DNA from: Deltaproteobacteria bacterium | Lineage (GTDB): Bacteria; Desulfobacterota; Syntrophorhabdia; Syntrophorhabdales; Syntrophorhabdaceae | Assembly: GCA_029553295.1 (NCBI GenBank) | Contig: JAKPCK010000088.1 | Coordinates: 1 to 38,528, forward strand | DNA length: 38,528 nucleotides | Direction of reading: 5' to 3' | Shown: piece after piece, positions 13,777 to 38,528 of the stretch | Position numbering within the stretch: position 1 is the stretch's first letter | How the letters are laid out: each line of letters begins with the position of its first letter | Translations under genes and position numbers: made by a program | Notes under the pieces: model-generated | What the model saw: only the letters and a program-made list of their open reading frames with translations | What the model was told of the DNA's origin: nothing | Database searches by the model: none

Positions 13777-13779
13777 AGC

Positions 13780-14736: not shown

Positions 14737-15812
14737 TAGAGATAGGTTTTCTCAAAAAAGAGAATTTACAGGCATTTTTAAAGGAACTGGCAGCAAAGTA
14801 TACTGTATATGCACCCTTTGCAGAGGAAGATATAGTATCCTTCAAGCCCCTTGCTGAGGGCAGGGATATCTGCCTTGATCGTCCTGCTAATCTATCGCCA
14901 AAATCAGTGATCTTTCCTCAGTATGAGACACTATTCAAATACAGTTTCTTAAAAAAAGAGGATAGCCCTGATAAGGTAGATATAAAGCTCGAAGAGCAGA
15001 TGGACTTCAAGGATACGGTTATATTCGGTGCAAGACCATGCGATGCAAAGGGTTTTACGGTCTACGACAGGGTTTACAAGGATTCAGATATACCAGACCC
15101 ATACTATACTGGCAGGCGTGAGAAGACAGTGATTATAGGCCTTGCATGTCCTGCACCATCCCCTGGTTGTTTCTGTGTGTCAGTGGGTGGTGGCCCTGCA
15201 GATAAAGAGGGTTCGGATATCCTCATTACAGAACTACCCAGTGGTTATGTATTTGAGCCTGTAACAGAAAAAGGCAAGGCATTAATGCAGTCAAGCCTCA
15301 TAGAAGACGGCAAGGCAAGCCTGCAAGAGGCACAGAAAAAACAGGAAGAGACAAAAAACAAGGTCAAAAATCCTTTTACAAAGACTGGAAAGCCTGAAAT
15401 ATCACAGAAGATATTTAATGAAGATGAATTCTGGGAACAGGCACTAAGCAAATGCGTAAGCTGTGCAGCATGCACATTCCTCTGCCCTACATGTTACTGT
15501 TTTAATATAACAGATGAGTCGAGATTAAAAGAGGGGGAGAGGATAAGGAGCTGGGATGCATGTATGTTTTTCCACTTTACCCTTGAGGCAAGTGGTCATA
15601 ACCCAAGACCTACAAAATTCCACAGGTTCAAAAACAGGGTAGGCCATAAGTTTGTTTATTATCCAGAGAAATACAACGGCGTCATAGCTTGCTGCGGCTG
15701 TGGAAGGTGCATAAGATACTGTCCTGTTTCAGTAGATATAAGCAAGGTCGTAGATGACCTGTGCGAGCAGAGCGCAGAAACAAATCTAACATCTAATGGG
15801 GGAAAGGCATGA
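14733..15812 (+). CDS. FlxB-like iron-sulfur protein (hydrogenase beta-subunit type)
   Basis: A 359-residue protein of the HydB/sulfhydrogenase beta-like family of dicluster ferredoxins that transfer electrons from partner flavoproteins. The N-terminal domain contains the conserved VIFGARPCDAKGF and GLACPAPSPGCFC. Two C-terminal cluster motifs follow: CVSCAACTFLCPTCYC (from Cys241) and CCGCGRCIRYCP (from Cys320). A charged Lys/Gln-rich linker (about 195-225) separates the halves. It begins at the ATGA overlap with the previous gene and ends in another overlap with the flavoprotein gene, the pairing also seen in sulfhydrogenase-type operons. It probably bridges FlxA to FlxC/FlxD; no hydrogenase active-site subunit is nearby. 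Confidence 0.8.
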   Translation: MIEIGFLKKENLQAFLKELAAKYTVYAPFAEEDIVSFKPLAEGRDICLDRPANLSPKSVIFPQYETLFKYSFLKKEDSPDKVDIKLEEQMDFKDTVIFGARPCDAKGFTVYDRVYKDSDIPDPYYTGRREKTVIIGLACPAPSPGCFCVSVGGGPADKEGSDILITELPSGYVFEPVTEKGKALMQSSLIEDGKASLQEAQKKQEETKNKVKNPFTKTGKPEISQKIFNEDEFWEQALSKCVSCAACTFLCPTCYCFNITDESRLKEGERIRSWDACMFFHFTLEASGHNPRPTKFHRFKNRVGHKFVYYPEKYNGVIACCGCGRCIRYCPVSVDISKVVDDLCEQSAETNLTSNGGKA

Positions 15813-16636
15813 AGAATCCCTACCTGCCTGAATTAGCAACCATTACAAACATTATAGAAGAGACACCCAATATAAAATCCTTTCATGTGGTCTTTAATGA
15901 CCCGGAAAAGATGAAAAACTTCAAATTCGAGCCAGGACAGGTTGGACAGCTCTCTGTTTTTGGTGTAGGTGAGTCAACCTTTGTTATAAATTCACCTCCC
16001 ACAAGGATGGAGTATCTCCAGTTCAGCGTCATGAAGGCAGGTGAGGTGACAAACGCCATACATGAACTCTATGTGGGAGACCAGATAGGTGTCAGGGCAC
16101 CCCTGGGCAACTGGTTCCCCTATGAACAGATGAAGGGCAAAAAAATACTCTTCATCGGTGGCGGCATTGGGCTTGCACCCCTGAGGACATTGATACTATT
16201 CATGCTCGACAACCGTAAGGACTACGACGACATAACGATACTTTACGGCGCCAGGACACCACCTGACCTATGTTACAAAGACGACCTCAAGGAGTGGGAA
16301 TCAAGGTCAGATGTCAATCTCATACTAACGGTTGATACAGAATATCCGGGATGGACAAAAAGGACAGGTTTTGTGCCAACAGTCCTCAATGAGATTGCAC
16401 CCTCCCCGGAGAATACCATAGCCATCACATGCGGTCCGCCTATAATGATAAAATTCGTCCTCCAGAACCTTGTAAAGCTCAACTTCAAGGATGAACAGAT
16501 TATAACCACCCTGGAAAAGAGGATGAAGTGCGGTATAGGTATCTGTGGAAGATGCAATATAGGCTCCAAATATGTGTGCAAGGATGGGCCTGTCTTCTCC
16601 CTTGACCAATTAAAGGCACTACCTCCTGAGCTATAA
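15809..16636 (+). CDS. FlxA-like FAD/NAD(P)-binding oxidoreductase with [2Fe-2S] cluster
   Basis: A 275-residue flavoprotein of the PyrK/HydG (ferredoxin-NADP reductase) fold, expected to oxidise NAD(P)H and feed electrons to the Hdr module. Seen: N-terminal FAD-binding barrel (FEPGQVGQLSVFGVGE, VMKAGEVTNAIHEL), NAD(P)-binding FIGGGIGLAPLRTL with the downstream TCGPPIMIK, and a C-terminal [2Fe-2S] motif C-x4-C-x2-C-x7-C (KCGIGICGRCNIGSKYVC). It is the last gene of the operon and overlaps its neighbour by ATGA. With hdrCBA and flxD it completes the FlxABCD-HdrABC set described from sulfate reducers and other anaerobes, where NADH oxidation is coupled to ferredoxin and disulfide reduction. Confidence 0.88.
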   Translation: MKNPYLPELATITNIIEETPNIKSFHVVFNDPEKMKNFKFEPGQVGQLSVFGVGESTFVINSPPTRMEYLQFSVMKAGEVTNAIHELYVGDQIGVRAPLGNWFPYEQMKGKKILFIGGGIGLAPLRTLILFMLDNRKDYDDITILYGARTPPDLCYKDDLKEWESRSDVNLILTVDTEYPGWTKRTGFVPTVLNEIAPSPENTIAITCGPPIMIKFVLQNLVKLNFKDEQIITTLEKRMKCGIGICGRCNIGSKYVCKDGPVFSLDQLKALPPEL

Positions 16637-23845: not shown

Positions 23846-25007
23846 ATGGCAGAGATAGGCAGGGCATTATCAGAGCTTGAAAGGATGGCTGCCCAGTATA
23901 AAAAGGCAATCGAGTCCCTTAACGAGAGTGAGGAGAGCCTTGAGCTTGCCATATCAGGCTCTAATGGCGGTCTGTGGTATCTATCCTTTGACCCTGAAAG
24001 ACCTGATATTATCCCTGATGAGATATATATCTCACCTACCTTAAAGAGGTTTATCGGCTATGAAGACCATGAATTTCCAAACTCTGTAAAGGCATGGAAG
24101 GAAAGGATTATCCCTGAAGATCTAATACTTGTAAATAAAAGCGCCCAGGAACACCTGGAAGGAAAAAGGGACATCCATAAGGTAGAATATCGTATATACC
24201 ACAAAGACGGCAGCATCCGTTGGATTCACAGCAGGGGTAAGATATTAAGGGATAGTTCAGGTAGGCCCATAAAAATAGGCAGGTATAGACTGGGATATAA
24301 CAGCGAGGAAAAAGGCAGAGGAGGATTTAAAAGCAGGAAAGGAGAGGCTCCAAAGTCTTTCAAAGAACCTTCTCAATAAACTCGAGGCAGAGCGCCGTCA
24401 CATGGCAAGGGAACTCCACGATGAGATTGGCCAGGCCTTAACTGCCATAAAGATAAACCTCCAATCCCTCCAGAGGATAAACGACCCTACTGCCTTCAAA
24501 AAGAGGCTCGATGACAGTATAGGGATAGTAGAGAGGACCCTCAATCAGGTAAGGGACCTGTCTTTAAACCTGAGGCCTTCACTGCTCGATGATATAGGCC
24601 TTGTCCCCACCATAAGGTGGTATGCAGACCGGCTCTTTAAGACAACAGGTATAGCAATAGAGCTTAAGATAGATGAGATCAAGAAAAGGCCGCCCCTTGA
24701 GATTGAGACAGCATGTTTTCGCATAGTCCAGGAGGCCCTAAATAATATTGTAAGGCATGCAGGGGCAGGCAAGATTACCATAGAACTGAGGATGGTGGAT
24801 GGATACCTTGACCTTGAGGTCATAGATGACGGCATTGGTTTTGATGTAAGGCATGCCATAGAGGATGCCCAGATGGGGAAAAGCCTCGGGATACTTGGTA
24901 TGAGGGAGAGGGCAGAGTTGTCAGGTGGTGAGATAGTAATAGAGTCTAATGCAGGGGGTAGCACAAAGGTTAAGGCCCGTTTTCCGGTAGATATGGATGT
25001 GCAATGA
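23846..25007 (+). pseudogene. PAS-HisKA_3 sensor histidine kinase, broken by a +1 frameshift
   Basis: The first segment (23846-about 24277) encodes a PAS domain with its PAC end (EYRIYHKDGSIRWIHSRGKIL, SSGRPIKI). The expected continuation AGIDWDITARKKAEEDL is in the +1 frame from 24279. One extra G in the GG at 24278-24279 explains the break exactly. The second frame then runs intact to 25007: phospho-acceptor helix MARELHDEIGQALTAIK, N box QEALNNIVRHA, G boxes DDGIGFD and LGILGMRERAELSGG, a NarX/DesK-type kinase. Repaired length is about 386 residues, with no transmembrane segment. ATG 24402 lies inside the HisKA_3 helix and is not a natural start. The stop overlaps the response-regulator start by ATGA. 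It is decay or a sequencing error; the motifs remain well preserved, so any decay is recent. Confidence 0.85.
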
Positions 25008-25684
25008 GAGACAGAAAAGGCAAAAATATAAAGGTTGTCCTCGCTGAAGACCATACCCTTGTGAGAAAAGGCATAAAAGCACTCCTTGAGGAGCTTGAAG
25101 GTATAGATGTGGTGGCTGAGGCAGGGGATGGCCATGAGGCAATAAACGCTGTTGAGACAAGTGGCCCTGATATAGTGTTACTCGATATTGCCATGTCTGG
25201 TTTAAACGGCCTTGAGGTGGCATCGAGGATAACAAAGGATTTTCCCGATACAAAGGTGATATTACTATCCATGCATGCAAACGAGGAATATGTCTTCCAG
25301 TCCCTTAAGGCAGGCGTTGCAGGCTATCTCTTAAAGGATGCAGGGACAGCAGAGCTCGAGCTTGCCATAAGGAGTGTTATCCGTGGGAGATATATCTGAG
25401 CCCCCAGATATCAAAACAGGTTGTCACAGATTACATGGCCCGCACTGAAGGCAAGACAAGGGCAGGGCAGTCAATGGATTCAAACCCATTTGAGGTCCTC
25501 ACATCAAGACAGCGGGAGATTACAGCTTATTGCCGAGGGATATACCACAAAGGAGATAGCAAAGAGGCTGAATATAAGCATAAATACAGTAGAGGCCCAC
25601 AGGACCCAGATTATGGAACAACTGGACATACACAATATAGCAGGCCTTGTAAGATATGCTATCCGAACAAAGCTGGTGGAATAA
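25004..25684 (+). pseudogene. NarL/FixJ-type response regulator, broken by two frameshifts
   Basis: The receiver domain (25004-about 25385) is normal: AEDHTLVRKG, phospho-Asp in DIVLLDIAMSGLNG, and Lys in YLLKDAG. The frame then stops early (RGRYI, stop at 25397). One missing G in the GGG at 25384-25388 would restore RGEIYLSPQISKQVV and the linker through LTSRQRE. A second break near 25518-25524 (two bases lost or one gained) is needed to reach LQLIAEGYTTKEIAKRLNISINTVEAHRTQI, the LuxR-type HTH, which ends at 25684. So the order of frames is A, B, A. The repaired protein would be about 227 residues, normal for the family, and is the cognate partner of the overlapping kinase. As written, no DNA-binding regulator can be produced. 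Confidence 0.85.
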
Positions 25685-25793
25685 GACCCTTCAAAAACCT
25701 TATTGCCATAGATTAGGTTTTTATAGTCCTTCTGATTTCCTTATGGGTAATACCTGAAATTATCCCTGTAATAGTCCTTCAGAACCTTCTGGC

Positions 25794-26517: not shown

Positions 26518-27234
26518 CTACTGGAGTTTTATGGATTTTTTTGTCCTCTCTTTTCTCGCAGCCTCTTTTTCGTTATATTCTTTCATGCAGGAATCATCCT
26601 TGCCTTTTACAAGAGAACACTGGAGGTATTCTGCAATCTCGATTATGCACGCCCTTATGGCCTTACCTGTTGGGGTTTTTTCCTGATTGGAGAGATCCCC
26701 TGAAAATAGACCAAATCCACCTCTTAGGCTCAGACCCGATGACTCTGAAGACGCCTCTATGGTCCTTGCATCTACAATAGCCCCTGTCTCTGTACTGACA
26801 ACCTTCAGGTCAACGGCTATATAGGCCTCGTTCTTTTTTCCCCCTATGGTGAAGCCCATAAAGCCGAACCCTGCACCACTCCCGCTCGTGTGTTCTTCAA
26901 AGGAAGACACAGTACCAGCAATGAGATATTTTGCTGCTTTAAGGTTACCTATCTTGACCCTTGTGGCATCATCCACCAGACCTGATTCGCTTATCTTCTG
27001 TTCGCTTATGACCTTGTCAATCTCTCTTCTCTCGAGCACTTGAAAGGCCTTTGTGCTTACCAACTCAGATATAAGCATATCCTGGAGTTCCTGGCCTGTA
27101 TTACCCCTCCACCATGCTGCACCTGTCTTGTTGGAGAATCTTAATACCCCTACTGTTGGTTTGTCTTCTGCAAAAGCTATAGATACAGAGAACAGAAAAA
27201 CTAATGTTATTGCCAAAAAGATAATTTTTTTCAT
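26518..27234 (-). CDS. Secreted CsgG-family protein
   Basis: A 238-residue exported protein of the CsgG/HfaB/FlgO superfamily. Signal peptide MKKIIFLAITLVFLFSVSIAFA ends at a signal-peptidase I type site (AFA-ED) with no lipobox Cys, unlike curli CsgG. The CsgG core runs from about residue 25 (PTVGVLRFSNKTG) through MLISELVSTKAFQVLERREIDKVISEQ, a hallmark, and SGLVDDATRVKIGNLKAAKYLIAGTV. An extra Gly-rich segment (GSGAGFGFMGF) occupies the region where CsgG has transmembrane hairpins. The tail is Lys/Glu-rich. The ATG is preceded by AAGGGGG with 7 bases spacing. It is divergent from the barrel-protein operon, sharing the 27235-27471 control region. Curli-type secretion is not implied on its own; no CsgA, CsgE or CsgF is seen. 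Confidence 0.85.
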   Translation of the reverse strand: MKKIIFLAITLVFLFSVSIAFAEDKPTVGVLRFSNKTGAAWWRGNTGQELQDMLISELVSTKAFQVLERREIDKVISEQKISESGLVDDATRVKIGNLKAAKYLIAGTVSSFEEHTSGSGAGFGFMGFTIGGKKNEAYIAVDLKVVSTETGAIVDARTIEASSESSGLSLRGGFGLFSGDLSNQEKTPTGKAIRACIIEIAEYLQCSLVKGKDDSCMKEYNEKEAARKERTKKSIKLQ

Positions 27235-27333: not shown

Positions 27334-27362
27334 TTGACAATATACCCTGTGGCGGCTACAAT
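27334..27362 (+). promoter_or_regulatory. Sigma-70 promoter of the envelope operon
   Basis: A perfect TTGACA (27334-27339), a 17-base spacer and TACAAT (27357-27362, 5/6) are present. The predicted 5' leader before the barrel-protein start is about 100 bases, unusually long for this window, and AT-rich, with no obvious strong hairpin. Confidence 0.7.
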
Positions 27363-27471: not shown

Positions 27472-28230
27472 GTGAAAATCAAAGGAATGTTTATGATTAT
27501 ACCTGTAGTTTTACTTATCTTTACAGTGGCACCGGTATATGCCATAGGTATTGAGGCTGCCATAGGCGCCTGGAATCAGATACCTGAAGGTGATATGGGA
27601 TATAAAGGAGATTCACTCAGTTTAAAGAGTGACCTTCAGTATAGTAAAAGCAAGACAGAGATGTCAGGCAGGGTAAAGATAGATATGCCTCTTTTTATAC
27701 CTAATATCTATCTTATGGCAACACCCATGAAGTATACAGGAAATGGGGTTAAAAACACGGCATTCAGATTCGGTGACAGGGTCTATTTAGCCAATGTCCC
27801 CTATAGCTCTGAGCTAAAATTAGACCACTATGATATAGGCCTCTATTACGGTATACCCTTTATAAACACAGCAACCCTTGGTAAACTTAATGTAGATGTA
27901 GGTTTAAATCTCAGGATTATGGACATGAAGGGGAGTATTACACAGGGAAATATCTCAGAGTCTAAGAGTGTAACAGCCCCGCTCCCTATGCTATATGCAG
28001 CAGGACAGCTAAAGGTCATTGGAGATTTCTCCGTTGAGGCAGAGACAAGGGGCATTGCCTATAGTTCAAACCATTATATTGATGTTATCGGCAGGCTCAA
28101 ATATAAGGTCTTTGGCCCTGCCTTTATTGGTGCAGGATACAGATATGAAAAGATTAAGGTGGACTATAAAGACCTGAAGGTAGACGTGAACATAGGCGGC
28201 CCTTTTGCAGAGATAGGTGTTAAGTTTTAG
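27472..28230 (+). CDS. Outer-membrane beta-barrel protein, TIGR04219-like
   Basis: A 252-residue exported protein with a signal peptide ending at PVYA. The mature part is dominated by alternating hydrophobic/polar strands and ends in a C-terminal aromatic residue (EIGVKF), the BAM recognition signature of outer-membrane barrels. The pattern IGIEAAIGAWNQIPEGDMGYKGD, GLYYGIPF and GPAFIGAGYRYEKI matches the TIGR04219 outer-membrane family as I recall it. GTG 27472 is used, with AAGGAGGT 5-7 bases upstream; the later ATG 27487 lies inside the signal peptide. It is the first gene of the plus-strand envelope operon, with the next gene 22 bases on. It may be a porin-like or anchoring component; function is unknown. 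Confidence 0.82.
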   Translation: MKIKGMFMIIPVVLLIFTVAPVYAIGIEAAIGAWNQIPEGDMGYKGDSLSLKSDLQYSKSKTEMSGRVKIDMPLFIPNIYLMATPMKYTGNGVKNTAFRFGDRVYLANVPYSSELKLDHYDIGLYYGIPFINTATLGKLNVDVGLNLRIMDMKGSITQGNISESKSVTAPLPMLYAAGQLKVIGDFSVEAETRGIAYSSNHYIDVIGRLKYKVFGPAFIGAGYRYEKIKVDYKDLKVDVNIGGPFAEIGVKF

Positions 28231-28252
28231 TGATTTTTTATAGGTGGTGATA

Positions 28253-29449
28253 ATGAATAAAAAGATATTGCTTATTATATGCCTCTCTATTTTACCTTTA
28301 GTGTTTTTTGCCATAGAAGGATTATGTCAGACAAAATGCATAGACTCTGAAGGAGAGGCGGTAATTTTAAACAACGATATCCCTTCTGCAAAGATAGAGG
28401 CTGTGGCAAGGGCTAAATGGGCTGCCATTGAGCAGACAGTAGGTGTTGAGGTTAAGGCACAGAGCGTCATGCAGAATATGGCATTGGTTGACGATGCAGT
28501 AAGTAGACAGATAAAGGGGGATATAGCAAGCTATAAGATCCTGGGTGAAGACATAAAGGATGGCGTAATAAAGGTAAGGATAAACGCATGTGTCGAGTCA
28601 AACAGGGCAAGGGATGCATTATCCTCCCTTGCCTTGAATAACTCTGTGGCTGTCTTTGTCCCTGCAAAAAAACCAAAGGTTGTTAGTGAGACAGAGCATA
28701 TAAGGAGAACACCCTATGGAACCCAGGAGAGACATGGCCTGCAGACCAGGGATGAATACGATGATACTAATTTTTTCTCTGAAAACATCATAAAGAGGCT
28801 TACTGAACAGGGCTATACTGTAACTGATGTTGCACCCACCCGCGCCACAGATGCCGCTGAGCTGGAAAGGGCTTTAAAGACCGGTAATTTCCTTAGTATG
28901 AGGAGCCTTATGTATAAATTTCTCTCTAATGTGCTACTCCTCGGCAAGATAGAATATGCAATTTCCACAAGAAAAGGTCAGGATATAGGATACGGTTTGT
29001 CCATGCCCTTTAACCATGTTACTGTAAGGCTCACCTATAGGATTGTCACAAGAGACCAATCGGGCCAGATGAGGATTTTGACTGCCGATGCTGTGGAAGG
29101 CAAGGGTCTTGCAAAGAACGTGGAGGATGCAACAGCCAGGGGTCATCAAGACCTGGCAGAAAAGGCAGGTCCTATGATAATGGAGAAGATAAGTCAGTAT
29201 ATAAAGGGGGTTGCCAAGAAGATAAATGTAAAGTTTGAAGGTGTAAATGACCTGAATACAAACTTTGAGATAAAAGGCGTACTCCAGAATACAGCTTGGG
29301 TAACCAGTGTAGATGAGAAGGGTCTTGGGGAATTTGTTGTTAGTTATCCAGAGAACCCAGTATATCTTGCCAATAGCATAAGCCAGAGGGGAAACTTCAG
29401 GGTGAAGAATTTCTCTACCTATTCTATTGTTGTAAAATATGAAAAATAA
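28253..29449 (+). CDS. Secreted protein with FlgT N-domain-like module
   Basis: A 398-residue exported protein. ATG 28253 follows TAGGTGGTG and opens directly on a signal peptide (MNKKILLIICLSILPLVFF); GTG codons at 28244 and 28247 overlap that ribosome-binding site and are less likely. Residues about 28-130 (SEGEAVILNNDIPSAKIEAV, RAKWAAIEQTVGVEVKAQSV, QIKGDIASYKILGED) match the pattern of the FlgT N-terminal domain, found in the H-ring protein of the Vibrio flagellar motor. A middle region (about 130-330) has alpha/beta character. The tail (about 340-398) looks beta-rich. Its stop lies inside the next gene's leader. No flagellar gene is near, so a non-flagellar periplasmic ring or assembly role is inferred only. 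Confidence 0.7.
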   Translation: MNKKILLIICLSILPLVFFAIEGLCQTKCIDSEGEAVILNNDIPSAKIEAVARAKWAAIEQTVGVEVKAQSVMQNMALVDDAVSRQIKGDIASYKILGEDIKDGVIKVRINACVESNRARDALSSLALNNSVAVFVPAKKPKVVSETEHIRRTPYGTQERHGLQTRDEYDDTNFFSENIIKRLTEQGYTVTDVAPTRATDAAELERALKTGNFLSMRSLMYKFLSNVLLLGKIEYAISTRKGQDIGYGLSMPFNHVTVRLTYRIVTRDQSGQMRILTADAVEGKGLAKNVEDATARGHQDLAEKAGPMIMEKISQYIKGVAKKINVKFEGVNDLNTNFEIKGVLQNTAWVTSVDEKGLGEFVVSYPENPVYLANSISQRGNFRVKNFSTYSIVVKYEK

Positions 29450-29465
29450 AAAAAGGAGCTATATT

Positions 29466-30509
29466 ATGAGAAAGAGTCTATACCTTGTATTGTTACTGCT
29501 ATTTCTTTTATTGTTGAATGCCTGTGCCACATCCATCAAGACCACTGCCCTTGTCCCGGCAAGGTATCATGAGGCAGCAGTCCTTAAAGAGGTGGCGGTC
29601 TTACCTTTTGACGGAAGGGGAGGGGTCGAGTTTGCCACAGAGATAGAAGGGACATTGGGGAGTATCAATATAGGGGATAAACAGTATTTTACATTGGTGG
29701 AGAGGGCAAGGCTCGACAGGGTGATGAATGAGCTCAAGTTTTCCCAGAGCGGGCTTGTGGATGAGACCAAGGCAGCACAACTCGGTAAGATGGTAGGTGC
29801 AAAAGGGATTTATACAGGTAGAATTAATAAATCAGATTATGTTGATAAGCCATATACTGAACAGAGAACAGTTTGTGTTCAGAGAGAGACAAAAAGAGAT
29901 AGAAAAGGCAACATTGTTGAGGGAGATTGTTTAAGTTGGAGAAAATACAAGGTAAATTGCACAGAGAGGATTGTAAACTTTGAATTTACACCCAAGCTCA
30001 TCGAGGTTGAGACAGGGAGGGTTGCCTATTCCAGGACCATATCAAAGACCACAGGGGCAAAGGCTTGTTCAGACAGTTCAACCCCCCTCCCCAGTGTTAT
30101 GGAGCTTATAGGGAAGGCAAAGGATATGGCAAAGGCAGAATTCAGGAGGGATATAGCCCCATATTATGTGAATTTCGAGATAGTCCTCATGGATTCCAAA
30201 GACGGGATCGTATCTCGAGATGCAGAGAACAAGTTTGAAAGGGCCCTTGATTATGCAAGAAGCAACAGGATGGACAGGGCATGTGAACTCTGGGGAGAGT
30301 CACGGATACTGTCGCCAAATGCACCATCTATCCTCTATAACCTTGGCATATGCTCTGAGATAACAGGGGATTTGGAAAAGGCCTATGAACTATATCAAAA
30401 GGCAGATAGGGAGATCGGGAAACCTGATGATAACATAACAAAGGCTCTAAGCAGGGTAGGCGAACAATTGAAAAAACAGAGGCTATTAAAGGAACAGGTA
30501 GGAAAATAG
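29466..30509 (+). CDS. CsgG/FlgO-like lipoprotein with C-terminal TPR
   Basis: A 347-residue lipoprotein. ATG 29466 follows AAAAGGAG and gives a signal peptide with lipobox LLNAC; upstream in-frame start codons overlap the previous gene and lack that spacing. The CsgG-type core follows (KEVAVLPFDGRGG, FTLVERARLDRVMNELKFSQSGLVDETKAAQLGKMVGAKGIYTGRI). An inserted loop carries four Cys (CVQRETK..., CLSWRK, NCTER, KACSDSS) that could form disulfides in the periplasm. From about residue 255, FERALDYARSNRMDRACELWGES and YNLGICSEITGDLEKAYELYQKA form TPR-like repeats. CsgG itself is also a lipoprotein, so this copy is the best candidate for an outer-membrane pore in the cluster. Pore formation is not shown by sequence. 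Confidence 0.82.
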   Translation: MRKSLYLVLLLLFLLLLNACATSIKTTALVPARYHEAAVLKEVAVLPFDGRGGVEFATEIEGTLGSINIGDKQYFTLVERARLDRVMNELKFSQSGLVDETKAAQLGKMVGAKGIYTGRINKSDYVDKPYTEQRTVCVQRETKRDRKGNIVEGDCLSWRKYKVNCTERIVNFEFTPKLIEVETGRVAYSRTISKTTGAKACSDSSTPLPSVMELIGKAKDMAKAEFRRDIAPYYVNFEIVLMDSKDGIVSRDAENKFERALDYARSNRMDRACELWGESRILSPNAPSILYNLGICSEITGDLEKAYELYQKADREIGKPDDNITKALSRVGEQLKKQRLLKEQVGK

Positions 30510-30549
30510 TTTTGTAATCTTAAGTTAAAGAGAAAAGGAGGTATTTTAA

Positions 30550-31767
30550 ATGAAAGCACGGCTATTGATTCTTTTAATGATTGGTCTACTATCTATCCCG
30601 TTTATCTATGGTTGTGAAAAACCCCAGGTTGCAAGATGCACATTGCCAGAGGATAACCCCCAGCACCACTATGTGAGGGGTATGGAGGCCATAGAGCAGG
30701 GTAGACTGGATGTGGCAAAAGAGAAATTCGAAAGGGCCTTATACTGTGATGAAAACTTCTATCCTGCCAATGGCGGGCTGGCCATTATATCAGCCTATAG
30801 GGTCGTGCAACAGAAAGACCCTGGATACAGCGCTGTGGACAGACAGCGTGCCATTGACTATGTGGAGAACAGAGGGGCACGGGCAGTAACAGATGAGGAT
30901 AAGTTTGACCATTTTGTCTCTGTTATAAGGGTAGATACCATTATGGATGGCAGGGACTGGCTTGACAAGGCAGAGAGCGCATACAGGATGGCAAAAGAAC
31001 TCAAGGTGGACGAGAGAAGGCTCTATTATTATCAGGGATTAGAGTCTCTGGACTATTTTATGGGCCTTGCATATGTAGAGGCAATGGAGTTCCAAAAGGC
31101 AAGGGAGAAGTTCGCTTCTGTCCTTAACGCAAAGAGGGGAGGCAAGTGGAATGAGAAGGCAGACAGGGCATGGAAAAAGATGGACAAGATTGTCCAGGCC
31201 ATGGCCGGGATAACCGTTGGCGATGTGGGTAAGAAGATTGCCATAAAAGACTCTGTCACAAGGGCAGACCTTGCAGCGCTCCTCGTTGATGAGCTAAAGG
31301 TAGATAAGCTCTTTGCCGGTAGGATTCCTGTCCAATCCCAGCTTGACAGGATGAAGCCAGAATTTACACCAGCAGATATGATGAACAATCCCTTCAAAGA
31401 TGAGATACAGACCATTATGAAATGGAAGGTGAGGGGTTTAGAACCTAAATACGATGAGACAACAAAGGCCTATCTCTTTAAGCCTACAGAGGTTGTAAAA
31501 AGGGGAGAGATGGCCTTCATCCTTGAGGATGTCCTTATAAAGCTTACCGGAGACGAGAAGATTGCCACTGCCTATTTCGGTCAGAGTAAATCACCTTTCC
31601 CTGATATAAGGCCTACCTCGCCTATTTACAATGCAGTTATGAATATGACATCAAGGGGTATTATGGTTGGCGAGCTCTCCGGCGAATTCAGGCCTGATGA
31701 CCCGGTAACAGGTGCAGATGCACTGCTTGCCCTGAGGATGTTAAAACAGAGGATGAATATATATTAA
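30550..31767 (+). CDS. Lipoprotein with TPR-like N-half and C-terminal SLH domains
   Basis: A 405-residue protein with signal peptide and lipobox (FIYGC). Residues about 35-80 (HHYVRGMEAIEQGRLDVAKEKFERALYCDENFYPA) and 160-205 (YYYQGLESLDYFMGLAYVEAMEFQKAREKFASVL) are TPR-like helical repeats. The C-terminal half carries S-layer-homology motifs: VTRADLAALLVDEL, then NPFKDEIQTIMKW...VVKRGEMAFILED, then SPFPDIRPTSPIYNAVMNMTSRGIMVGELSGEFRPDDPVT. The last is the clearest copy. SLH domains bind cell-wall polymers, and in diderms they occur on peptidoglycan-binding envelope proteins. A strong AAAAGGAGGT precedes ATG 30550. It may tether the neighbouring complex between outer membrane and wall; this is inference. 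Confidence 0.82.
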   Translation: MKARLLILLMIGLLSIPFIYGCEKPQVARCTLPEDNPQHHYVRGMEAIEQGRLDVAKEKFERALYCDENFYPANGGLAIISAYRVVQQKDPGYSAVDRQRAIDYVENRGARAVTDEDKFDHFVSVIRVDTIMDGRDWLDKAESAYRMAKELKVDERRLYYYQGLESLDYFMGLAYVEAMEFQKAREKFASVLNAKRGGKWNEKADRAWKKMDKIVQAMAGITVGDVGKKIAIKDSVTRADLAALLVDELKVDKLFAGRIPVQSQLDRMKPEFTPADMMNNPFKDEIQTIMKWKVRGLEPKYDETTKAYLFKPTEVVKRGEMAFILEDVLIKLTGDEKIATAYFGQSKSPFPDIRPTSPIYNAVMNMTSRGIMVGELSGEFRPDDPVTGADALLALRMLKQRMNIY

Positions 31768-31783
31768 AATTTAGGAGGTAGCA

Positions 31784-32719
31784 ATGAAAAAGACTGTTGT
31801 ATTGTTTTTGGTTCTTTTATTATGTCTTGTTGGTTCTGCATTTGCCCAGCAGCCACCACCAGGAGATACAGGTGTGGATAGCGCCTTTGTTACTGCCAAT
31901 GAATGGCTCAATAAAAACAATCTATCGGTAACAGGGGGCGCAGGCGGTGCAAACTACGAGCAGGCATTCATGCAGGATGCCATACTTGTGGTCGGTGAGG
32001 CAGTAGCACCAGCCCACATCACCCACCCATCTCAGAGGGAGATTATGGCAAAAAGGGGTGCTGTGGTTATGGCACAGAGACAGCTTGCCGAATACCTGAA
32101 TGGCTTTGCCATAGTAGGTGATACCCTGGTTAAAGACGGTATGACCCAGTATGATGTGGTCCGTAGTGCAGTTGCAGGGCTTGTAAAAGGCGCCCAGGTT
32201 GTGGTTCAGGAATATAATAGAGAAAAGGATATGGCCATAGCCATATTGAAGCTCGGGATGCACGGGCCAAAGAGCTTTGCATCAACCCTGTATGAGAAGA
32301 TGTTCAGCGACCCTAATCTGAGAAAGGAACTGAGGACAGATAAGCCTTCATACAGGGGCAGACCTGTTCCCCTCGACGACAAATACGATGGGTTGATAAT
32401 AGATGCAACAGAGCATAACTTCAGACCGGCTCTCATAAACAGGATTTTTACAGTAAAGGGTGAGGTTATATACGACCCTGCCAAGATAAGCCAGAAGGTC
32501 CTCGTCGAACAGGGCTGCGGCGAATATACAAACAGTATTGAGAAGGCAAGGGCAGCATTAAGCTCAAGAGGTGTAAACAACCCTATGGTTATAAAGGCCT
32601 CAGGAACAGTAAGCCCATCTGACCTACAGGTCTCTCCCGAAGACGCTGCCAAGGTATTTTCTGCCAATCAAAAGACAAACTTCTTTGCCTCTGCAAAGGT
32701 TGCATTTGTTCTAAAGTAA
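31784..32719 (+). CDS. Secreted LPP20/FlgP-like protein
   Basis: A 311-residue exported protein with signal peptide MKKTVVLFLVLLLCLVGSAFA-QQ and no lipobox. Residues about 60-165 follow the LPP20 family pattern closely: VVGEAVAPAHITHPSQREIM, AKRGAVVMAQRQLAEYLNGF, YDVVRSAVAGLVKGAQVVVQEY and MAIAILKLGM. LPP20 proteins include FlgP of the Vibrio flagellar H-ring and Helicobacter Lpp20. The C-terminal half (about 185-311, IIDATEHNFRPALINRIFTVKGEVIYDP) is a second domain I do not recognise. AGGAGG lies 7 bases before the ATG. It follows the SLH lipoprotein by 16 bases. Together with the FlgT-N-like and CsgG/FlgO-like genes upstream it reproduces the fold set of FlgO-FlgP-FlgT. Confidence 0.78.
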   Translation: MKKTVVLFLVLLLCLVGSAFAQQPPPGDTGVDSAFVTANEWLNKNNLSVTGGAGGANYEQAFMQDAILVVGEAVAPAHITHPSQREIMAKRGAVVMAQRQLAEYLNGFAIVGDTLVKDGMTQYDVVRSAVAGLVKGAQVVVQEYNREKDMAIAILKLGMHGPKSFASTLYEKMFSDPNLRKELRTDKPSYRGRPVPLDDKYDGLIIDATEHNFRPALINRIFTVKGEVIYDPAKISQKVLVEQGCGEYTNSIEKARAALSSRGVNNPMVIKASGTVSPSDLQVSPEDAAKVFSANQKTNFFASAKVAFVLK

Positions 32720-32726
32720 AAGTTCT

Positions 32727-32762
32727 TGAGGGGATACAGGACATGGTTCCTGTATCCCCTCA
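32727..32762 (+). terminator. Perfect 15-bp hairpin between operon genes
   Basis: GAGGGGATACAGGA (32728-32741) and TCCTGTATCCCCTC (32748-32761) are perfect inverted repeats. One more T-A pair closes the base, and the loop is CATGGT. It starts 8 bases after the stop of the LPP20-like gene. The following bases (TTTAGTGA) are only weakly T-rich, so it may act as a partial terminator/attenuator or an mRNA 3'-end protector. It separates the first part of the operon from the LamG fusion and transglutaminase genes. Confidence 0.7.
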
Positions 32763-32787
32763 TTTAGTGAAAAATGGAGGTTATGAT

Positions 32788-33924
32788 ATGAGAAGACCCT
32801 CATTAGCATTTTTTTTCAGTATCCTTATATTTTTTCTTGTTTGCCCTTTTGTATACAGCTATGAAAAAGAGATGGATGACCTTGCCTCATATATTGCCAG
32901 TAATATGGACAAGATAGGGAGAAAGAGGGTTGTGGTTGCTGATTTCAATGACGAGCATGGCAAACCCATGGAGCTGGGGAGATATATCTCTGATGAACTC
33001 TCTTTATTTTTAAGGAGAAAGGCAAAGGGTTTTGATGTCCTCGAGAGAAACCAGTTAAAGTCCATACTTTTCCAGAATAAATTAACCATAGGCGACCCTT
33101 ATGACCTACAGGTTGTGAAGCGTCTCGGCCAGATTGCAAGGGTAGGCGCTATTGTAACAGGTTCTATAAGGGTTTTTCAGGATAGTATAAGGGTTGAGAT
33201 AAACCTTGTAAATACCTATATGGCAAATGTTATTGGTACAACAAAGGCAGACATAGTAAAGACCCAGAGGATACGGGAGCTCCTTGGAAAAAAAGGGGAG
33301 CTTGTAGGATACTGGAGGTTTGATGACCCGAACAACCTTGGCTTTGACAGTTCAGGCTATGGAAATCACGGCTCTGTCATGTATTCCAAGATCAGGTTCG
33401 TAAATGAGGGTATAATGGGCGGTGCAGCATATTTTTTTGAAGGCAGGTCAGATGTCCCAGCAGGTATTGTGGTGAGAAACAGCGATTCCCTGAATATCAG
33501 AACCGGTGAGATTACCATTGCTGCATGGGTAAAACCTGATGGTAACAATATAGATAACGGAAATGCCGTTATATCGAAATGCTGTGAACCGTATGGTCTA
33601 TTTACCTGGCTTGCTTCACCGGCAAACGGGTTATCCGCTGTCTTTTCTTCGGCGGCAGTATATTCCGGTTATGTTATCCCTAATAATGTATGGAGCCATA
33701 TCGCAGTTGCATATGACGGAAATACTGCAAGATTCTATTGTAATGGTTCCCTTGTAGCTACCAGATCTTTTCCAAGGGGCCTAGCTATGGACAATGGTGA
33801 TCTTTATATAGGCGCCTCTCCCTCCGGTGCACCAGAGGATTTCTCAGGGATAATGGATGATGTGAGGATATATAACAAGGCGCTTTCAGATGGAGAGGTC
33901 TACAATGTCTTTATCTCTCGCTGA
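32788..33924 (+). CDS. CsgG/FlgO-like domain fused to LamG-like lectin domain
   Basis: A 378-residue exported protein. ATG 32788 lies 7 bases after GGAGG and opens on a signal peptide (MRRPSLAFFFSILIFFLVCPFVYS); ATG 32743 lies in the hairpin loop upstream and is rejected. Residues about 25-165 are CsgG/FlgO-like: KRVVVADFNDEHGKPMELGRY, KGFDVLERNQLKSILFQNKL, RLGQIARVGAIVTGSIRVF. From about 175 a LamG/concanavalin A-like jelly roll begins: LVGYWRFDDPNNLGFDSSGYG, IAAWVKPDGN, WSHIAVAYDGNTARFYCNGS, GIMDDVRIYNKALS. This lectin-like domain usually binds carbohydrate or protein ligands outside the cell. The fusion suggests that the CsgG-like module delivers or anchors a binding domain. The next gene is 47 bases on. 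Confidence 0.85.
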   Translation: MRRPSLAFFFSILIFFLVCPFVYSYEKEMDDLASYIASNMDKIGRKRVVVADFNDEHGKPMELGRYISDELSLFLRRKAKGFDVLERNQLKSILFQNKLTIGDPYDLQVVKRLGQIARVGAIVTGSIRVFQDSIRVEINLVNTYMANVIGTTKADIVKTQRIRELLGKKGELVGYWRFDDPNNLGFDSSGYGNHGSVMYSKIRFVNEGIMGGAAYFFEGRSDVPAGIVVRNSDSLNIRTGEITIAAWVKPDGNNIDNGNAVISKCCEPYGLFTWLASPANGLSAVFSSAAVYSGYVIPNNVWSHIAVAYDGNTARFYCNGSLVATRSFPRGLAMDNGDLYIGASPSGAPEDFSGIMDDVRIYNKALSDGEVYNVFISR

Positions 33925-33971
33925 ATTGGTGGGTTTATTTTATAGAAAATTAAATCTATAGGACAGGCATT

Positions 33972-35639
33972 ATGAAGAGATTTTTTTTATATTTTATGGC
34001 TTTTTTTGTTGTTTTTGCTGTTTTAACGGGTTATTCATCTGCAAAGACACTCCTCCTTGAGGGTAGACTTGAGGGGAAAATCAATGTAACCCAGCATATG
34101 AATTTTACTATAAGCAGACCGTTAAACAGCTTGAGCTACAGGTTTGCATTACCTGTTTCTTTCTCCAACAGGACTGTGAATCAGGGGCTTAGACAACTGA
34201 ATGTGCGATTTGACCCCCAGCCATCAAATGTGGAAGATGAAAGGGATTCCTTTGGTAATAACTATAAAAGGGTGACATGGAACAATCTCGGTCAGGATGC
34301 AAAGATTATCATATCCTATGAGACAAACATCAAATCTGAGTTATCTGCCATGGAGAGCAGGGCAGTCTTTCCTTTAAAATCACTGCCCCCTGAGACAACT
34401 GTTTTTCTGAGACCTACAAAGATGGTGCCGAGTGATTCCCCTGAGATTGTATCTCTTTCGAGAAGATTGACATCCGGTGCAGATACTGAGTATCAGGCTG
34501 TTACCTCAATAATGAACTTTATAGCTGATAATATAAAATACGCCTATAATCCACCCCAGTATGATGCCATACATACACTGAATGTAAAGTCAGGCAACTG
34601 CCAGAACCTGGCCCATCTTTCCATGGCGCTTTTGAGGGCAGCAGGGATACCTGCACGAATTGTCGGCGGTATAACGCTCAAGGACCAGTGGAAGGTTCCT
34701 CTTGGTGGGGGCAATTATTCTGTCCAGGGCATGGGACAGGGAGGTCATGTGTGGATTGAGATATTTTTCCCTGACCTTGGCTGGCTATCCTATGACCCCC
34801 AGCAGTCCAAACAGTTCACCTCTACAAGACATATAAAACAGACCCATGGACTTGATTCAAAGGATGTTAATGATTCATGGAGGGCATCACCCTATGTCCC
34901 TGAATACAGCGAGCTCATAGATGCAAAATTTATAGACGACAATATAAACCTCGTCCTGAAATCAAGTTATGATTCGCCAAGGTCATACATAGTAAGCAAT
35001 AATATAAGTATTAAGGCTGTTGCCCCACCTCCTGGGCCACCTAAGCCGCCTACACCACCTACACCGCCTACACCACCTCCGCCATTACCCCCTGCGGGCA
35101 AGATGACAGAATTTGGAAACATGGAGTTTCCGACCCTTGTAAACCTCTATCAGATAATAGGAGACAGGGCAGAAAAGATCATGGATAAGGAGACTGCCGA
35201 ATATGTTACATCTACCTATGTCTATGCCCAGGCATTCAAGGTAACAAAAGACTTTGACCTGCATACTGTCTCTCTTGCCATGAGAAAATTCGGAGGCGAC
35301 GGCAGTATCTACATAGACCTTGTCTCAGATGATAAAGGCAAACCCAATATACTCTCCGGGACACGTTCGAAGTTTGTATCACTGGAGGCTATCAGGAAGA
35401 GACCGGGCTATTACTGGGTAGATTTTACCTTTCCCACAGACACAGGGTTTGTAAGGCTAAAAAAAGGCAAATACTGGATTGTATTAAGACGTTCAGGGGA
35501 GGCGATAGTAAATTGGTTCTATACCCCTGGAAAGCATTATGGTGACAGCGATGACACAAGGTCAACATCCAAGGGTTATAAGTGGGAGGATATACTCAAC
35601 TACGATTTCGTATTCAAGGTAAGGGGTATATACAGATAA
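33972..35639 (+). CDS. Exported transglutaminase-like protein with poly-Pro linker and C-terminal jelly-roll-like domain
   Basis: A 555-residue exported protein with signal peptide ending near YSSA. An N-terminal beta domain (about 26-150) is followed by a transglutaminase-like core (about 155-300) with the full triad: Cys210 in SGNCQNLAH, His259 in GGHVWIEIF and Asp275 in WLSYDPQQ. A proline-rich linker (about 350-375, repeated PPTPP units, DNA 35026-35095) leads to a C-terminal beta-rich domain (375-555), ending in DFVFKVRGIYR. That part resembles choice-of-anchor/DUF4082-type modules; I am unsure of its family. Such enzymes act as cysteine proteases, amidases or cross-linkers; which applies here is unknown. 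It is the last gene of the plus-strand operon. Its stop codon directly abuts the stop of the convergent SH3 gene with no base between. Confidence 0.85.
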   Translation: MKRFFLYFMAFFVVFAVLTGYSSAKTLLLEGRLEGKINVTQHMNFTISRPLNSLSYRFALPVSFSNRTVNQGLRQLNVRFDPQPSNVEDERDSFGNNYKRVTWNNLGQDAKIIISYETNIKSELSAMESRAVFPLKSLPPETTVFLRPTKMVPSDSPEIVSLSRRLTSGADTEYQAVTSIMNFIADNIKYAYNPPQYDAIHTLNVKSGNCQNLAHLSMALLRAAGIPARIVGGITLKDQWKVPLGGGNYSVQGMGQGGHVWIEIFFPDLGWLSYDPQQSKQFTSTRHIKQTHGLDSKDVNDSWRASPYVPEYSELIDAKFIDDNINLVLKSSYDSPRSYIVSNNISIKAVAPPPGPPKPPTPPTPPTPPPPLPPAGKMTEFGNMEFPTLVNLYQIIGDRAEKIMDKETAEYVTSTYVYAQAFKVTKDFDLHTVSLAMRKFGGDGSIYIDLVSDDKGKPNILSGTRSKFVSLEAIRKRPGYYWVDFTFPTDTGFVRLKKGKYWIVLRRSGEAIVNWFYTPGKHYGDSDDTRSTSKGYKWEDILNYDFVFKVRGIYR

Positions 35640-36131
35640 CTATTCAGGAACCTGTTGGGTCAGGCTTTTATCTATCCAGCCAATGAGTCCAGATGGGAGC
35701 CTGACCTTAAACATATTCCCAGACTCATCTATCTTTTCCATCTTTGTCCCGGGGCTCACAACCCTCAGGGATTTACTCTTGATATCTGCTTCTGCCCTTA
35801 TATGGGACTGTTTAGTGGTTATTAAAAATATAATTGTTGGAAGAGCCTTTGCCTTTTGTTGAACCTGTGGCGTTACCATCTCGGTGGGTACCCAGGTCTC
35901 TATGTATTTTCCCTCTTCATCTATCTTATTTAGATACCTTTTGACCTCACCTGTCTTTGTGTCTATCAAAAATACACCAGTAGATGTATCGCTCTGCTGT
36001 GTCTTTATATTGAAAGTCTTGAATGTCCCCTGGAAGAGCTGGTATCTACCTATTTCGGACTGGGACTGGGCTATTGCAGCCCCTGCAAATGTCAAAAACA
36101 AAGACAGGCTAATGGCAGTTATCCTTAACAT
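35640..36131 (-). CDS. Secreted bacterial SH3-domain protein
   Basis: A 163-residue exported protein with signal peptide ending AGAAIA-QS. The N-terminal part (about 25-85, GRYQLFQGTFKTFN, TGVFLIDTKTGEVKRYLNK) resembles small periplasmic beta proteins that report a stored value. The C-terminal part (about 95-160, HIRAEADIKSKSLRVVSPGTKMEKIDESGNMFKVRLPSGLIGWIDKSL) is a typical SH3b domain, often binding peptidoglycan or peptides. The start has GAGGAG about 7 bases upstream, 11 bases after the preceding FN3 gene, so it is the last gene of a minus-strand operon. Function is probably wall- or complex-binding; not known. Confidence 0.8.
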   Translation of the reverse strand: MLRITAISLSLFLTFAGAAIAQSQSEIGRYQLFQGTFKTFNIKTQQSDTSTGVFLIDTKTGEVKRYLNKIDEEGKYIETWVPTEMVTPQVQQKAKALPTIIFLITTKQSHIRAEADIKSKSLRVVSPGTKMEKIDESGNMFKVRLPSGLIGWIDKSLTQQVPE

Positions 36132-36142
36132 ATTCTTCTCCT

Positions 36143-37825
36143 CTACTTTTTTGGTTCGGCTATTGCCTGAACCGATATAGGTGATGACAACTGGCTTTCA
36201 GCATTGGCAGAGTTAAAAGAAGAAACCCTGTAATAGAGTACAGTATTCTCCTTTATACTGAAGTCGTCATCTATATACTGGTCTCTGTCAGACCTTACAT
36301 CGTTTATCAATCTGTATTCCCCACTCTCTGTTGATGACCTGTATATCTTGTAACCCTTTATCTCATCATCTGGGCTTACTATGAGGTCCCACTGCAATAC
36401 CACCTTTTTTGGCTCTGTAGCCCTTGCCTTTAGACCTGTTGGCACAGGAGGCCTATCCCTTGTCTTTGCCGATGTGGGCTCTGAGAGATCGGTTTCCATA
36501 TTGCTACTGTTATATGCAGCGATCCTGTACCAATATTCCTTGTTATCCTCTAAATCTCTGTCTGTATATGTAGTTGTCTCTCGGTTAGATATCTGGGTTA
36601 TCCTCCTATAGCTTCCATATTTATCAAAGGACCTGTAGATTCTATAGCCTTCTACAACATCAGAAATAATAGGTTCCCAGGCAAGGATAGCATGTCTTAT
36701 CTTTCCATTGGAGGCCTTTATGGGTTTCATCTTTGCAACAGTAGTAGCACTGAGGCGGGCGGAGAAATGGCTCTCCGACTTATTCTCATTAAATGCTGTT
36801 ATAGCATATTCATACTCTGTGCCGTCTGATAGGCCTTTATCGGTAAATTCCTTTGCCTCATTGCTTAATCTTGCAGCCTCTGTGTAATCTTTTTCACCCT
36901 GTTTTTTTCTATAGATCTTAAAGCCTGCTACCTCAAGGCCCTTTTCTTTTTCTCCATGGGGTTTGGGCACCCATTTGAGGTGTGCACTTTTTATATCAGG
37001 TTTGATATTTAGAAATATAGGTGGATATGGCGCCACAGATGTCCTGCCCACAGCCATGGTGGAGAACTCAGACTCTGCACCTGTCTGGGATATAGCCTTT
37101 ATCTTATAGTAAAATGTCTCATTTAATTTCAGATTTCTGTCCATAAAAAAAGTAGTGGTAGTAGTGGCTATCTGGTTAAAGGGCCCCTCCTCCTTTGCTG
37201 ATTTGTATACCTTGTACCCAAGAATCATATCCGGTCTTTGGTGGCCCCATTTTATCCTTATGGCGTCTGTTGAGCCTGTTGTCTCTATGTTTACTGGGGG
37301 TGTAAGGGGTTGGGCAGCGGCAGCGCTACCGGCACCGGAGCACTCTTTTGCCTTTTTTATAATGATACCTGCAATATCCTGGATTTTTTTGCCAGATGCG
37401 TCCTTCTCAGAGACATTGTATATATCGCTCAGGCATGATGTCTTGCCTTTTATATCAAAGAGTTCAAGCTCCAGGACTATCCCGGCGTCTGTTGTATCTA
37501 TACTCCCGGAAAGGATAAAATCAAGCCCGTATTTATTGCCAATGGATAAAAAAGTGCTCTTTGACCTATCTTCTGGCCTCATATTCTCGAGATCCATGAT
37601 GTTCTCTATCTTTTTTCTCTCTGTCAGTTCAAAAAAACCTGACCTGTCTAAATCGTTCTGGAGCGTGGACATGAGGTTTTCTGTCTCACTTATGGCCCTT
37701 AAGGTCTTTGGGGTAAAAGGAAAACAGGCAAGCTTCTTTCTTATGCCCTGACTTGATGCATAAGAGAAAAGCATGAATACAGATAATATCGCAACAAAAC
37801 AGATAACAAAGGGTCTTTTATCCAT
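36143..37825 (-). CDS. Exported protein: CsgG/TolB-N-like domain plus four fibronectin type III domains
   Basis: A 560-residue exported protein with signal peptide MDKRPFVICFVAILSVFMLFSYASS. Residues about 28-160 look like a divergent CsgG/TolB-N type domain (KLACFPFTP, LMSTLQNDLDRSGFFELTERKKIENIM, IGNKYGLDFILSGSI, LELELFDIKGK). Four FN3 domains follow, starting near 175, 270, 368 and 460. Each has the Trp core and the GYKVYK/GFKIYR/GYRIYR/GYKIYR strand, plus the YYYKIKAIS/YEYAITAFN/YWYRIAAYN/LYYRVSSFN strand. FN3 arrays serve as spacers or binding arms on surface and periplasmic proteins. The gene starts 3 bases after the stop of the upstream partial gene, so they are translationally coupled. 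The FN3 copies are diverged, which argues against recent duplication. Confidence 0.85.
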   Translation of the reverse strand: MDKRPFVICFVAILSVFMLFSYASSQGIRKKLACFPFTPKTLRAISETENLMSTLQNDLDRSGFFELTERKKIENIMDLENMRPEDRSKSTFLSIGNKYGLDFILSGSIDTTDAGIVLELELFDIKGKTSCLSDIYNVSEKDASGKKIQDIAGIIIKKAKECSGAGSAAAAQPLTPPVNIETTGSTDAIRIKWGHQRPDMILGYKVYKSAKEEGPFNQIATTTTTFFMDRNLKLNETFYYKIKAISQTGAESEFSTMAVGRTSVAPYPPIFLNIKPDIKSAHLKWVPKPHGEKEKGLEVAGFKIYRKKQGEKDYTEAARLSNEAKEFTDKGLSDGTEYEYAITAFNENKSESHFSARLSATTVAKMKPIKASNGKIRHAILAWEPIISDVVEGYRIYRSFDKYGSYRRITQISNRETTTYTDRDLEDNKEYWYRIAAYNSSNMETDLSEPTSAKTRDRPPVPTGLKARATEPKKVVLQWDLIVSPDDEIKGYKIYRSSTESGEYRLINDVRSDRDQYIDDDFSIKENTVLYYRVSSFNSANAESQLSSPISVQAIAEPKK

Positions 37826-37828
37826 ATC

Positions 37829-38528
37829 TTACATGTCTTTTAATGCCTTGTTTATCCCCTCCCAAGATTCTTTTGTTATAGGGGTAGATATCCTCTTTAA
37901 TTTCTCAACATGTATGGCATCTACGAATTTTTCTATAGCAGATTCATATTCATTACTGGATAGGAGTTTTTTTGCCTGCTCTGAATAAGAGATCTGGAGG
38001 TTCTGGAAACGACCGAGGACAGCCTGGCCGAGTTTTGCAACTGTTTTGTTTATTACCCTCTCAAACAACTCAGAATCTGATGGCATCTTAAGGGGTATAT
38101 AGGGTATTTTGGCAAACTCGACACCCTCTTGGTAGTTCCCCTCAACTGTCTCTGTTTCTTTAAGGGTATCTGTTATCTTTACCTCACCCTCTTCCACATC
38201 TATTATCCTGTATGAGACTGTTACTGTGGCTGTATGCCTGTAGGTTGCAACCTTATAGGATACAAGCCTTGTCTCGTCTTCCTCAATGTATTGCGGAGGG
38301 GCATATTTAATCTGTTCTGGGGTTGGATAAGGATGTGTTTGCCGCCATATCCTATATTCCTCGTTGGGTAGACGTTTTTTGCCGACCACGGCATTAATGG
38401 TCCTCTGACCTTCATCCTTGTTCTTCTCTATATTGAACTGAAGGACATTGCCGAGGATAAATATATCTGTACCCTTTAGTTTTCCTGCCTTTTTTGCGCT
38501 CTCCAAATCAGCAAGGCCTGCCTGGCCA
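37829..38528 (-). CDS. Partial CDS, probably secreted CsgG-related protein, 5' end outside window
   Basis: The frame is open to the right edge (GQAGLADLESAKKAGKLKGTD...), so at least 232 residues are present and the start lies beyond the window; the in-frame TTG near 38506 is not supported as a start. ARKAGKLKGTD-like text followed by IFILGNVLQFN resembles the end of the CsgG helix-strand unit (family: KAGKLLGVDYIVTGSV). TVSYRIIDVEEGEVKITDTL fits the following strands. A C-terminal helix (LISSNEYESAIEKF-like, about 185-210) is TPR-like. No signal peptide can be seen because the N-terminus is missing. It is first in the visible part of the minus-strand unit and is coupled to the FN3 gene. Confidence 0.6.
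   Translation of the reverse strand, partial: GQAGLADLESAKKAGKLKGTDIFILGNVLQFNIEKNKDEGQRTINAVVGKKRLPNEEYRIWRQTHPYPTPEQIKYAPPQYIEEDETRLVSYKVATYRHTATVTVSYRIIDVEEGEVKITDTLKETETVEGNYQEGVEFAKIPYIPLKMPSDSELFERVINKTVAKLGQAVLGRFQNLQISYSEQAKKLLSSNEYESAIEKFVDAIHVEKLKRISTPITKESWEGINKALKDM

Follow-up and report, generated by a model that had tools for sequence, protein, structure and literature searches.

This analysis concerns a gene cluster in a 38,528-nucleotide stretch of DNA, referred to here as the window, from a Desulfobacterota genome of the order Syntrophorhabdales (2.25 Mb, 96.8% complete). Seven genes follow one another on the forward strand at 27472-35639, in the order barrel, FlgT-like, CsgG/TPR, SLH/TPR, FlgP-like, FlgO/CsgG-LamG and transglutaminase. 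Because the intergenic gaps are below 50 bases, a promoter-like site is present, and an AAGGAGG ribosome-binding site can be read directly 5' of the barrel gene, the block most plausibly forms a single operon of seven genes. The first-pass annotation had placed FlgT, CsgG, SLH/TPR and FlgP genes in one operon, and all four are indeed present and closely spaced on the forward strand. The extent it gave, 28253-32719, was too narrow, since the unit also includes the barrel gene (27472), the FlgO/CsgG-LamG gene (32743) and the transglutaminase gene (33972). The operon comprises the following features:

27334..27362, forward strand: promoter-like site TTGACA-17-TACAAT, 5' of the operon, 11 of 12 consensus positions (a consensus match only)
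27472..28230, forward strand: outer-membrane beta-barrel protein of the TIGR04219 family (NCBIfam TIGR04219, E 8.4e-48, over cut-off)
28244..29449, forward strand: FlgT-like periplasmic protein, GTG start, ATG at 28253
29439..30509, forward strand: CsgG/LpoB-like lipoprotein with C-terminal TPR, lipobox LNAC, ATG at 29466 (Pfam CsgG 4.4e-8, LpoB 1.1e-6, TPR_2 9.4e-7)
30550..31767, forward strand: lipoprotein with TPR and SLH repeats (SLH 1.4e-16; one repeat by Pfam, two degenerate ones by eye)
31784..32719, forward strand: FlgP-like protein, 311 aa, with an SHS2 domain carrying a hairpin insert (about residues 60-160) and a C-terminal Tp0624 D2-like domain (about 190-311)
32743..33924, forward strand: FlgO/CsgG-like domain fused to LamG (concanavalin-like) (CsgG 2.6e-4, Laminin_G_3 5.9e-28)
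33972..35639, forward strand: secreted transglutaminase-core protein, the last gene of the operon (Transglut_core 1.3e-27)

The FlgP-like protein, encoded at 31784, matches no Pfam family. Its FlgP fold, named in the first-pass annotation, is supported by sequence searches against the PDB, in which the single sequence found Campylobacter jejuni FlgP (9hmf_C) at E 1.5e-9 and Vibrio FlgP at 5e-4, and a profile of 21 relatives found them at 3e-17 and 3.6e-12 (8z5n), respectively. The alignment with Campylobacter FlgP is gapless over the SHS2 core and the hairpin used by FlgP rings; that with Vibrio FlgP is likewise gapless across the hairpin. According to the study of the C. jejuni motor (PMC12222027), whether FlgP-family proteins form rings correlates with the presence of an insert that separates the SHS2 helix from strand two. 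This insert is kept at FlgP's own length and pattern in nearly all of the 36 aligned Desulfobacterota relatives, with that of G170 diverging; for example, it reads GFAIVGDTLVKDGMTQYDVVRSAVAGLVKGAQVV in the window protein and GVKVNGKDTVKDAMLRSSTITAQVNGLIKNASII in C. jejuni FlgP. Retention of a FlgP-length insert, taken together with the published correlation, is the main reason to expect that these proteins may form rings.

The C-terminal part of the same protein (residues 190-311) superimposes on Treponema pallidum Tp0624 (5jir, chain range 189-318) with Z 14.5 and a root-mean-square deviation (rmsd) of 2.2 over 115 residues; this range is taken to be domain D2 from the domain order in the paper. 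With Foldseek, the FlgP-like model was aligned to Tp0624 over 277 columns spanning both domains. When described in 2016, D2 was said to resemble no other known structure, and D1 was reported never to occur without D2, or D2 without D1 (PMC5104382). The Tp0624-type D1-D2 pair now seems to be widespread in Desulfobacterota.

The FlgT-like protein combines an SHS2-type FlgT_N domain with an insert, a CsgG/TolB-N-like middle domain and a differing C-terminal alpha/beta domain. With hmmscan, FlgT_N scored 27.4 bits (E 4.8e-6; cut-off 28.8); the genome scan gave 30.1 bits (28340-28588), which exceeds the cut-off, as does the score of the paralog in genome G011. The FlgT fold previously assigned to the frame at 28253 agrees with the Foldseek search of the predicted model, which ranked FlgT (3W1E) first at E 2.9e-8, ahead of FlgT from the Vibrio ring structure (8z5n), with CsgG next. 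Alignment of the model with VIA-align yielded Z 10.9 against 3W1E over 214 residues (model residues 31-321) with an rmsd of 13.4, which suggests a different inter-domain angle in the model. The same program gave Z 10.2 against 8z5n over residues 131-321, and 9.5 and 8.8 against PelC and TraT, both oligomeric ring lipoproteins; the middle domain likewise resembles the ring lipoproteins PelC, TraT and CsgG. No FlgT_C match was obtained on this protein by Pfam hmmscan at E 1, and that domain is instead weakly matched, in G011 and G410, by the CsgG-like protein. A PDB search with the single FlgT-like sequence returned no match. With the family profile, FlgP was found at 2.3e-6 and FlgT was not significant, and the hairpin-insert stretch of the family N-domain again has the same length and pattern as in FlgP.

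The gene with its ATG at 29466 had been annotated as FlgO. However, the protein of 29439-30509 matches CsgG and LpoB and has no Pfam FlgO match; the best FlgO match (PF17680; 1.2e-4, 22.3 bits, just below the cut-off of 22.6) lies beyond the range first noted, on the protein of 32743-33924. Of the proposed FlgO-FlgP-FlgT trio interleaved with an SLH/TPR gene, the interposed SLH/TPR gene stands, and the set itself is better described as FlgT-like, CsgG-like, SLH/TPR, FlgP-like and barrel. The SLH/TPR gene is the most conserved marker of this module: its lipobox cysteine (Cys22) is invariant in 19 orthologs, and arginines 238 and 318 are invariant in the family. The lipobox cysteine is invariant in the CsgG-like family alignment too.

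These domains could also serve without any ring, as monomers or small oligomers of an outer-membrane/cell-wall tethering and maintenance set comparable to LpoB, Tol-Pal or Tp0624. Such a role would suit the CsgG, LpoB and TolB_N matches, the SLH and TPR domains, and the identity of the nearest full-architecture structure, Tp0624 D1-D2, a proposed envelope stabiliser. It sits poorly with a FlgP ring insert of constant length in nearly all relatives and with the rings formed by FlgT, FlgP, CsgG and PelC relatives, and it is considered unlikely.

The conservation of the operon as a unit was assessed in 395 Desulfobacterota genomes, 56 of which carry the SLH/TPR gene at the threshold used (E 1e-30). 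A FlgP-like gene lies at most 1 kb from the SLH gene in 42 of the 56 carriers, frequently accompanied by FlgT-like and CsgG-like genes, and within 6 kb in 5 more. One group of families arranges the genes as FlgT, GNA1162-like lipoprotein, CsgG-like, SLH, FlgP-like, barrel; a second group has FlgP-like, SLH, FlgT, a protein of about 215 aa, CsgG-like. The CsgG-like profile used for the relatives' loci was built with the window protein and that of G011, which thus matches by construction. A barrel gene similar to that of the window stands 3' of the FlgP-like gene in many relatives, and one of the relatives is a Geobacteraceae metagenome-assembled genome (locus L026). Chance clustering is ruled out by the adjacency in 42 of 56 carriers and by the two gene orders, and that the genes stay together despite reordering speaks for a common function. 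A defence system was also considered, and no PADLOC match was found; neither were any plasmid-borne copies of the FlgT-like or SLH proteins. In the literature searched, a limited selection with few subscription papers, the operon is not described as a phylum-wide non-flagellar set.

Two side observations concern the composition of the module in relatives. GNA1162-like lipoproteins (PF05643; L062:6002-7006 and L068:6427-7218) are found between the FlgT-like and CsgG-like genes, which links these loci to the Neisseria GNA1162 family. In G054, a genome without FlhA, a FlgP-like and FlgT-like pair (L020:2393-4494) has no SLH gene alongside and is possibly a minimal version of the module.

As the first-pass annotation stated for the 38 kb, no flagellar structural or motor gene came up when the larger genes of the window were scanned with Pfam. 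The check it proposed for the host genome gave the same picture: by four markers (flagellin, FlhA, FlgI and FliP), no flagellum is detectable in the 96.8% complete assembly. Across the phylum sample, FlhA is present in 34 of 56 carriers and in 214 of 339 non-carriers (odds ratio 0.90, p 0.77, kinship among genomes not corrected for). It is missing in the other 22 carriers, and five carriers besides the window's own genome (G011, G059, G131, G353 and G256), each 98-100% complete, have neither FlhA nor FliP. Where the cluster and FlhA share a contig, they are separated by about 114 kb (G234), 398 kb (G406) and 474 kb (G159).

An accessory locus of the flagellum, contributing to an H-ring or basal disk and left over in lineages without flagella, might be suspected from the likeness of the domain set to FlgO/FlgP/FlgT and from the genus-mate G002, which retains FlhA and FliP. 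This explanation is strongly weakened by the independence of carriage from FlhA, with 22 of 56 carriers lacking it, and by the distance of the cluster from FlhA on shared contigs; it is regarded as very improbable. The first-pass annotation had held that a complete flagellar regulon with these genes as its only FlgO, FlgP and FlgT copies would make the locus flagellar; this objection fails, because carriage was found not to track flagella. The core of genes for a FlgT-like protein, CsgG/FlgO/GNA1162-like lipoproteins, an SLH/TPR lipoprotein and a FlgP-like protein is kept in flagellated and flagellum-less genomes, in at least two orders and usually with a barrel gene. Because the module is retained regardless of the flagellum, it probably builds a different cell-envelope structure, one that is as yet undescribed.

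The reading preferred here, to which a probability of roughly 0.55 is assigned, takes the locus as one instance of a conserved non-flagellar Desulfobacterota envelope module that builds a ring or disk. Its product would most likely be a peptidoglycan-tethered ring or scaffold beneath the outer membrane, together with CsgG-family lipoproteins. In the proposed mechanism, the SHS2 domains of the FlgP-like and FlgT-like proteins would oligomerise into a ring or disk beneath the outer membrane, and this ring would stack on ring-forming CsgG-family lipoproteins. Its attachment to the outer membrane would be through the lipoproteins, and to the cell wall through the SLH repeats. At its centre the ring may then frame the barrel or a CsgG-type pore, which could export or display surface proteins, the LamG and transglutaminase products being candidate cargo.

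Several points weigh against this reading. Confidence in the structure models is modest (mean predicted local distance difference test scores of 63 and 68), and the hairpin is poorly predicted. The window FlgP-like protein carries an extra domain and has no lipobox: its signal peptide ends AFA-QQ, and no lipobox cysteine is conserved in the family alignment. Binding of the SLH repeats to peptidoglycan is an assumption. At the loci read in four genomes of family f27, nothing of the set was found beyond the SLH and FlgP-like pair or a single gene of that pair. Finally, secretins occur in 21 of the 22 carriers tested, which leaves room for a tie to another outer-membrane machine. A specific link to secretins or type IV pili was tried and not retained: LysM/TsaP-type chains are matched by the C-terminal domain of the relatives' CsgG-like family, and with secretins in 21 of 22 carriers a co-occurrence test has no power.

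Further CsgG-family genes lie near the operon, at 26518, 36143 and 37829, the first divergent from the operon and the other two in a second, convergent block:

26518..27234, reverse strand: CsgG-family protein of full length, transcribed away from the operon (CsgG 1.7e-53, with nearly the entire profile aligned)
35640..36131, reverse strand: SH3-domain protein of the second block (SH3_3 2.6e-7), conserved in G002
36143..37825, reverse strand: LpoB/TolB_N-like domain with FN3 repeats, second block (fn3 1.8e-20, LpoB 3.2e-5)
37829..38528, reverse strand: TPR-CsgG lipoprotein, 3' part, cut by the contig end (89% identity to L015:10182-12161)

With a full-length CsgG gene beside the operon, the cluster might instead be a CsgG-type secretion system for a fibre or coat on the cell surface, in which the FlgT-like protein would serve the CsgG pore as its periplasmic adaptor. 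A gene 51% identical to that at 26518 adjoins a FlgT-like gene in Geobacteraceae (L026), and the cluster encodes several exported LamG, FN3 and transglutaminase proteins. However, neither curlin repeats nor CsgF were matched in the genome itself or in 9 of 10 other carriers tested, with a positive E. coli control, and full-length-type CsgG is not seen at most relatives' loci. Secretion of this kind is consequently held to be quite improbable, and a curli system in the strict sense is ruled out by the absence of curlin and CsgF.

The second block of SH3, FN3 and TPR-CsgG genes is interrupted by the contig end. In G002 it runs on into a second FlgT-like gene, and the start of such a gene is found in the window's own genome at the end of contig C157 (G000:C157:2456-3085, L024; FlgT_N 39.7 bits). 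Judged by synteny with G002, this broken gene is probably the continuation of the block cut at the window's right edge. The transglutaminase gene of the operon (33972) has orthologs adjoining the FlgP-like gene in G011 and L026. Elsewhere in the window, a sensor kinase and a NarL-type response regulator at 23846-25716 look broken, with the PAS/kinase and receiver/DNA-binding parts in separate short frames, and represent either a pseudogene or an assembly error. At 9865-16636, heterodisulfide-reductase-like iron-sulfur proteins, FlpD/MvhD and a flavin oxidoreductase are clustered, as in electron-bifurcating metabolism.

If the locus does build an envelope ring, a broader and more doubtful proposal can be made, namely that an undescribed peptidoglycan-tethered ring of FlgP/FlgT-type and CsgG-family proteins serves a non-flagellar machine, with the H-ring and the basal disk as flagellar versions of an older envelope ring. 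The first-pass annotation had suggested a ring scaffold either reused or ancestral. The FlgT and FlgP folds and the missing flagellum accord with it, the assembly of a ring is deduced from the conservation of the insert, and the module may be either an ancestor of the flagellar rings or a loan from them. Each of the FlgT, FlgP, CsgG, SLH and transglutaminase domains has been described before; what appears new, within the literature searched, is their combination as a non-flagellar operon. The outer motor rings of Vibrio and Campylobacter have been described in flagella, and this widespread operon with ring-type domains of the same kind offers a concrete non-flagellar relative for testing whether such rings existed independently. 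Its presence in cells without flagella suggests that the Desulfobacterota, a phylum abundant in the environment, have an envelope structure that awaits study.

Among known systems, SLH cell-wall anchors share with the window the SLH repeats, one of them clear, and their binding to a cell-wall polymer is putative. The curli secretion system shares the full-length CsgG pore protein (26518-27234), whereas curlin and CsgF partners are missing from the genome. Tp0624 has the same two domains in the same order and an additional divergent OmpA-like D3, which is absent from the FlgP-like protein. C. jejuni basal-disk FlgP (9hmf) shares the SHS2 core and hairpin in gapless alignment; it is a short lipoprotein of the flagellar disk, in contrast to the 311-aa window protein with its D2-like domain. 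The Vibrio H-ring of FlgO, FlgP and FlgT differs in that the host here has no detectable flagellum, that SLH/TPR, barrel, LamG and transglutaminase genes are interleaved, that the FlgT-like protein has no recognisable FlgT_C, and that the FlgP-like protein lacks a lipobox and is extended by a further domain. It shares the FlgT N-terminal and middle folds, the FlgP SHS2 domain with its ring insert and the adjacency of the genes, and perhaps FlgO, by the domain match just below the cut-off. The CsgG/PelC/LpoB/GNA1162 superfamily, finally, has several members in the cluster, and two of its representatives, PelC and CsgG, form outer-membrane rings.

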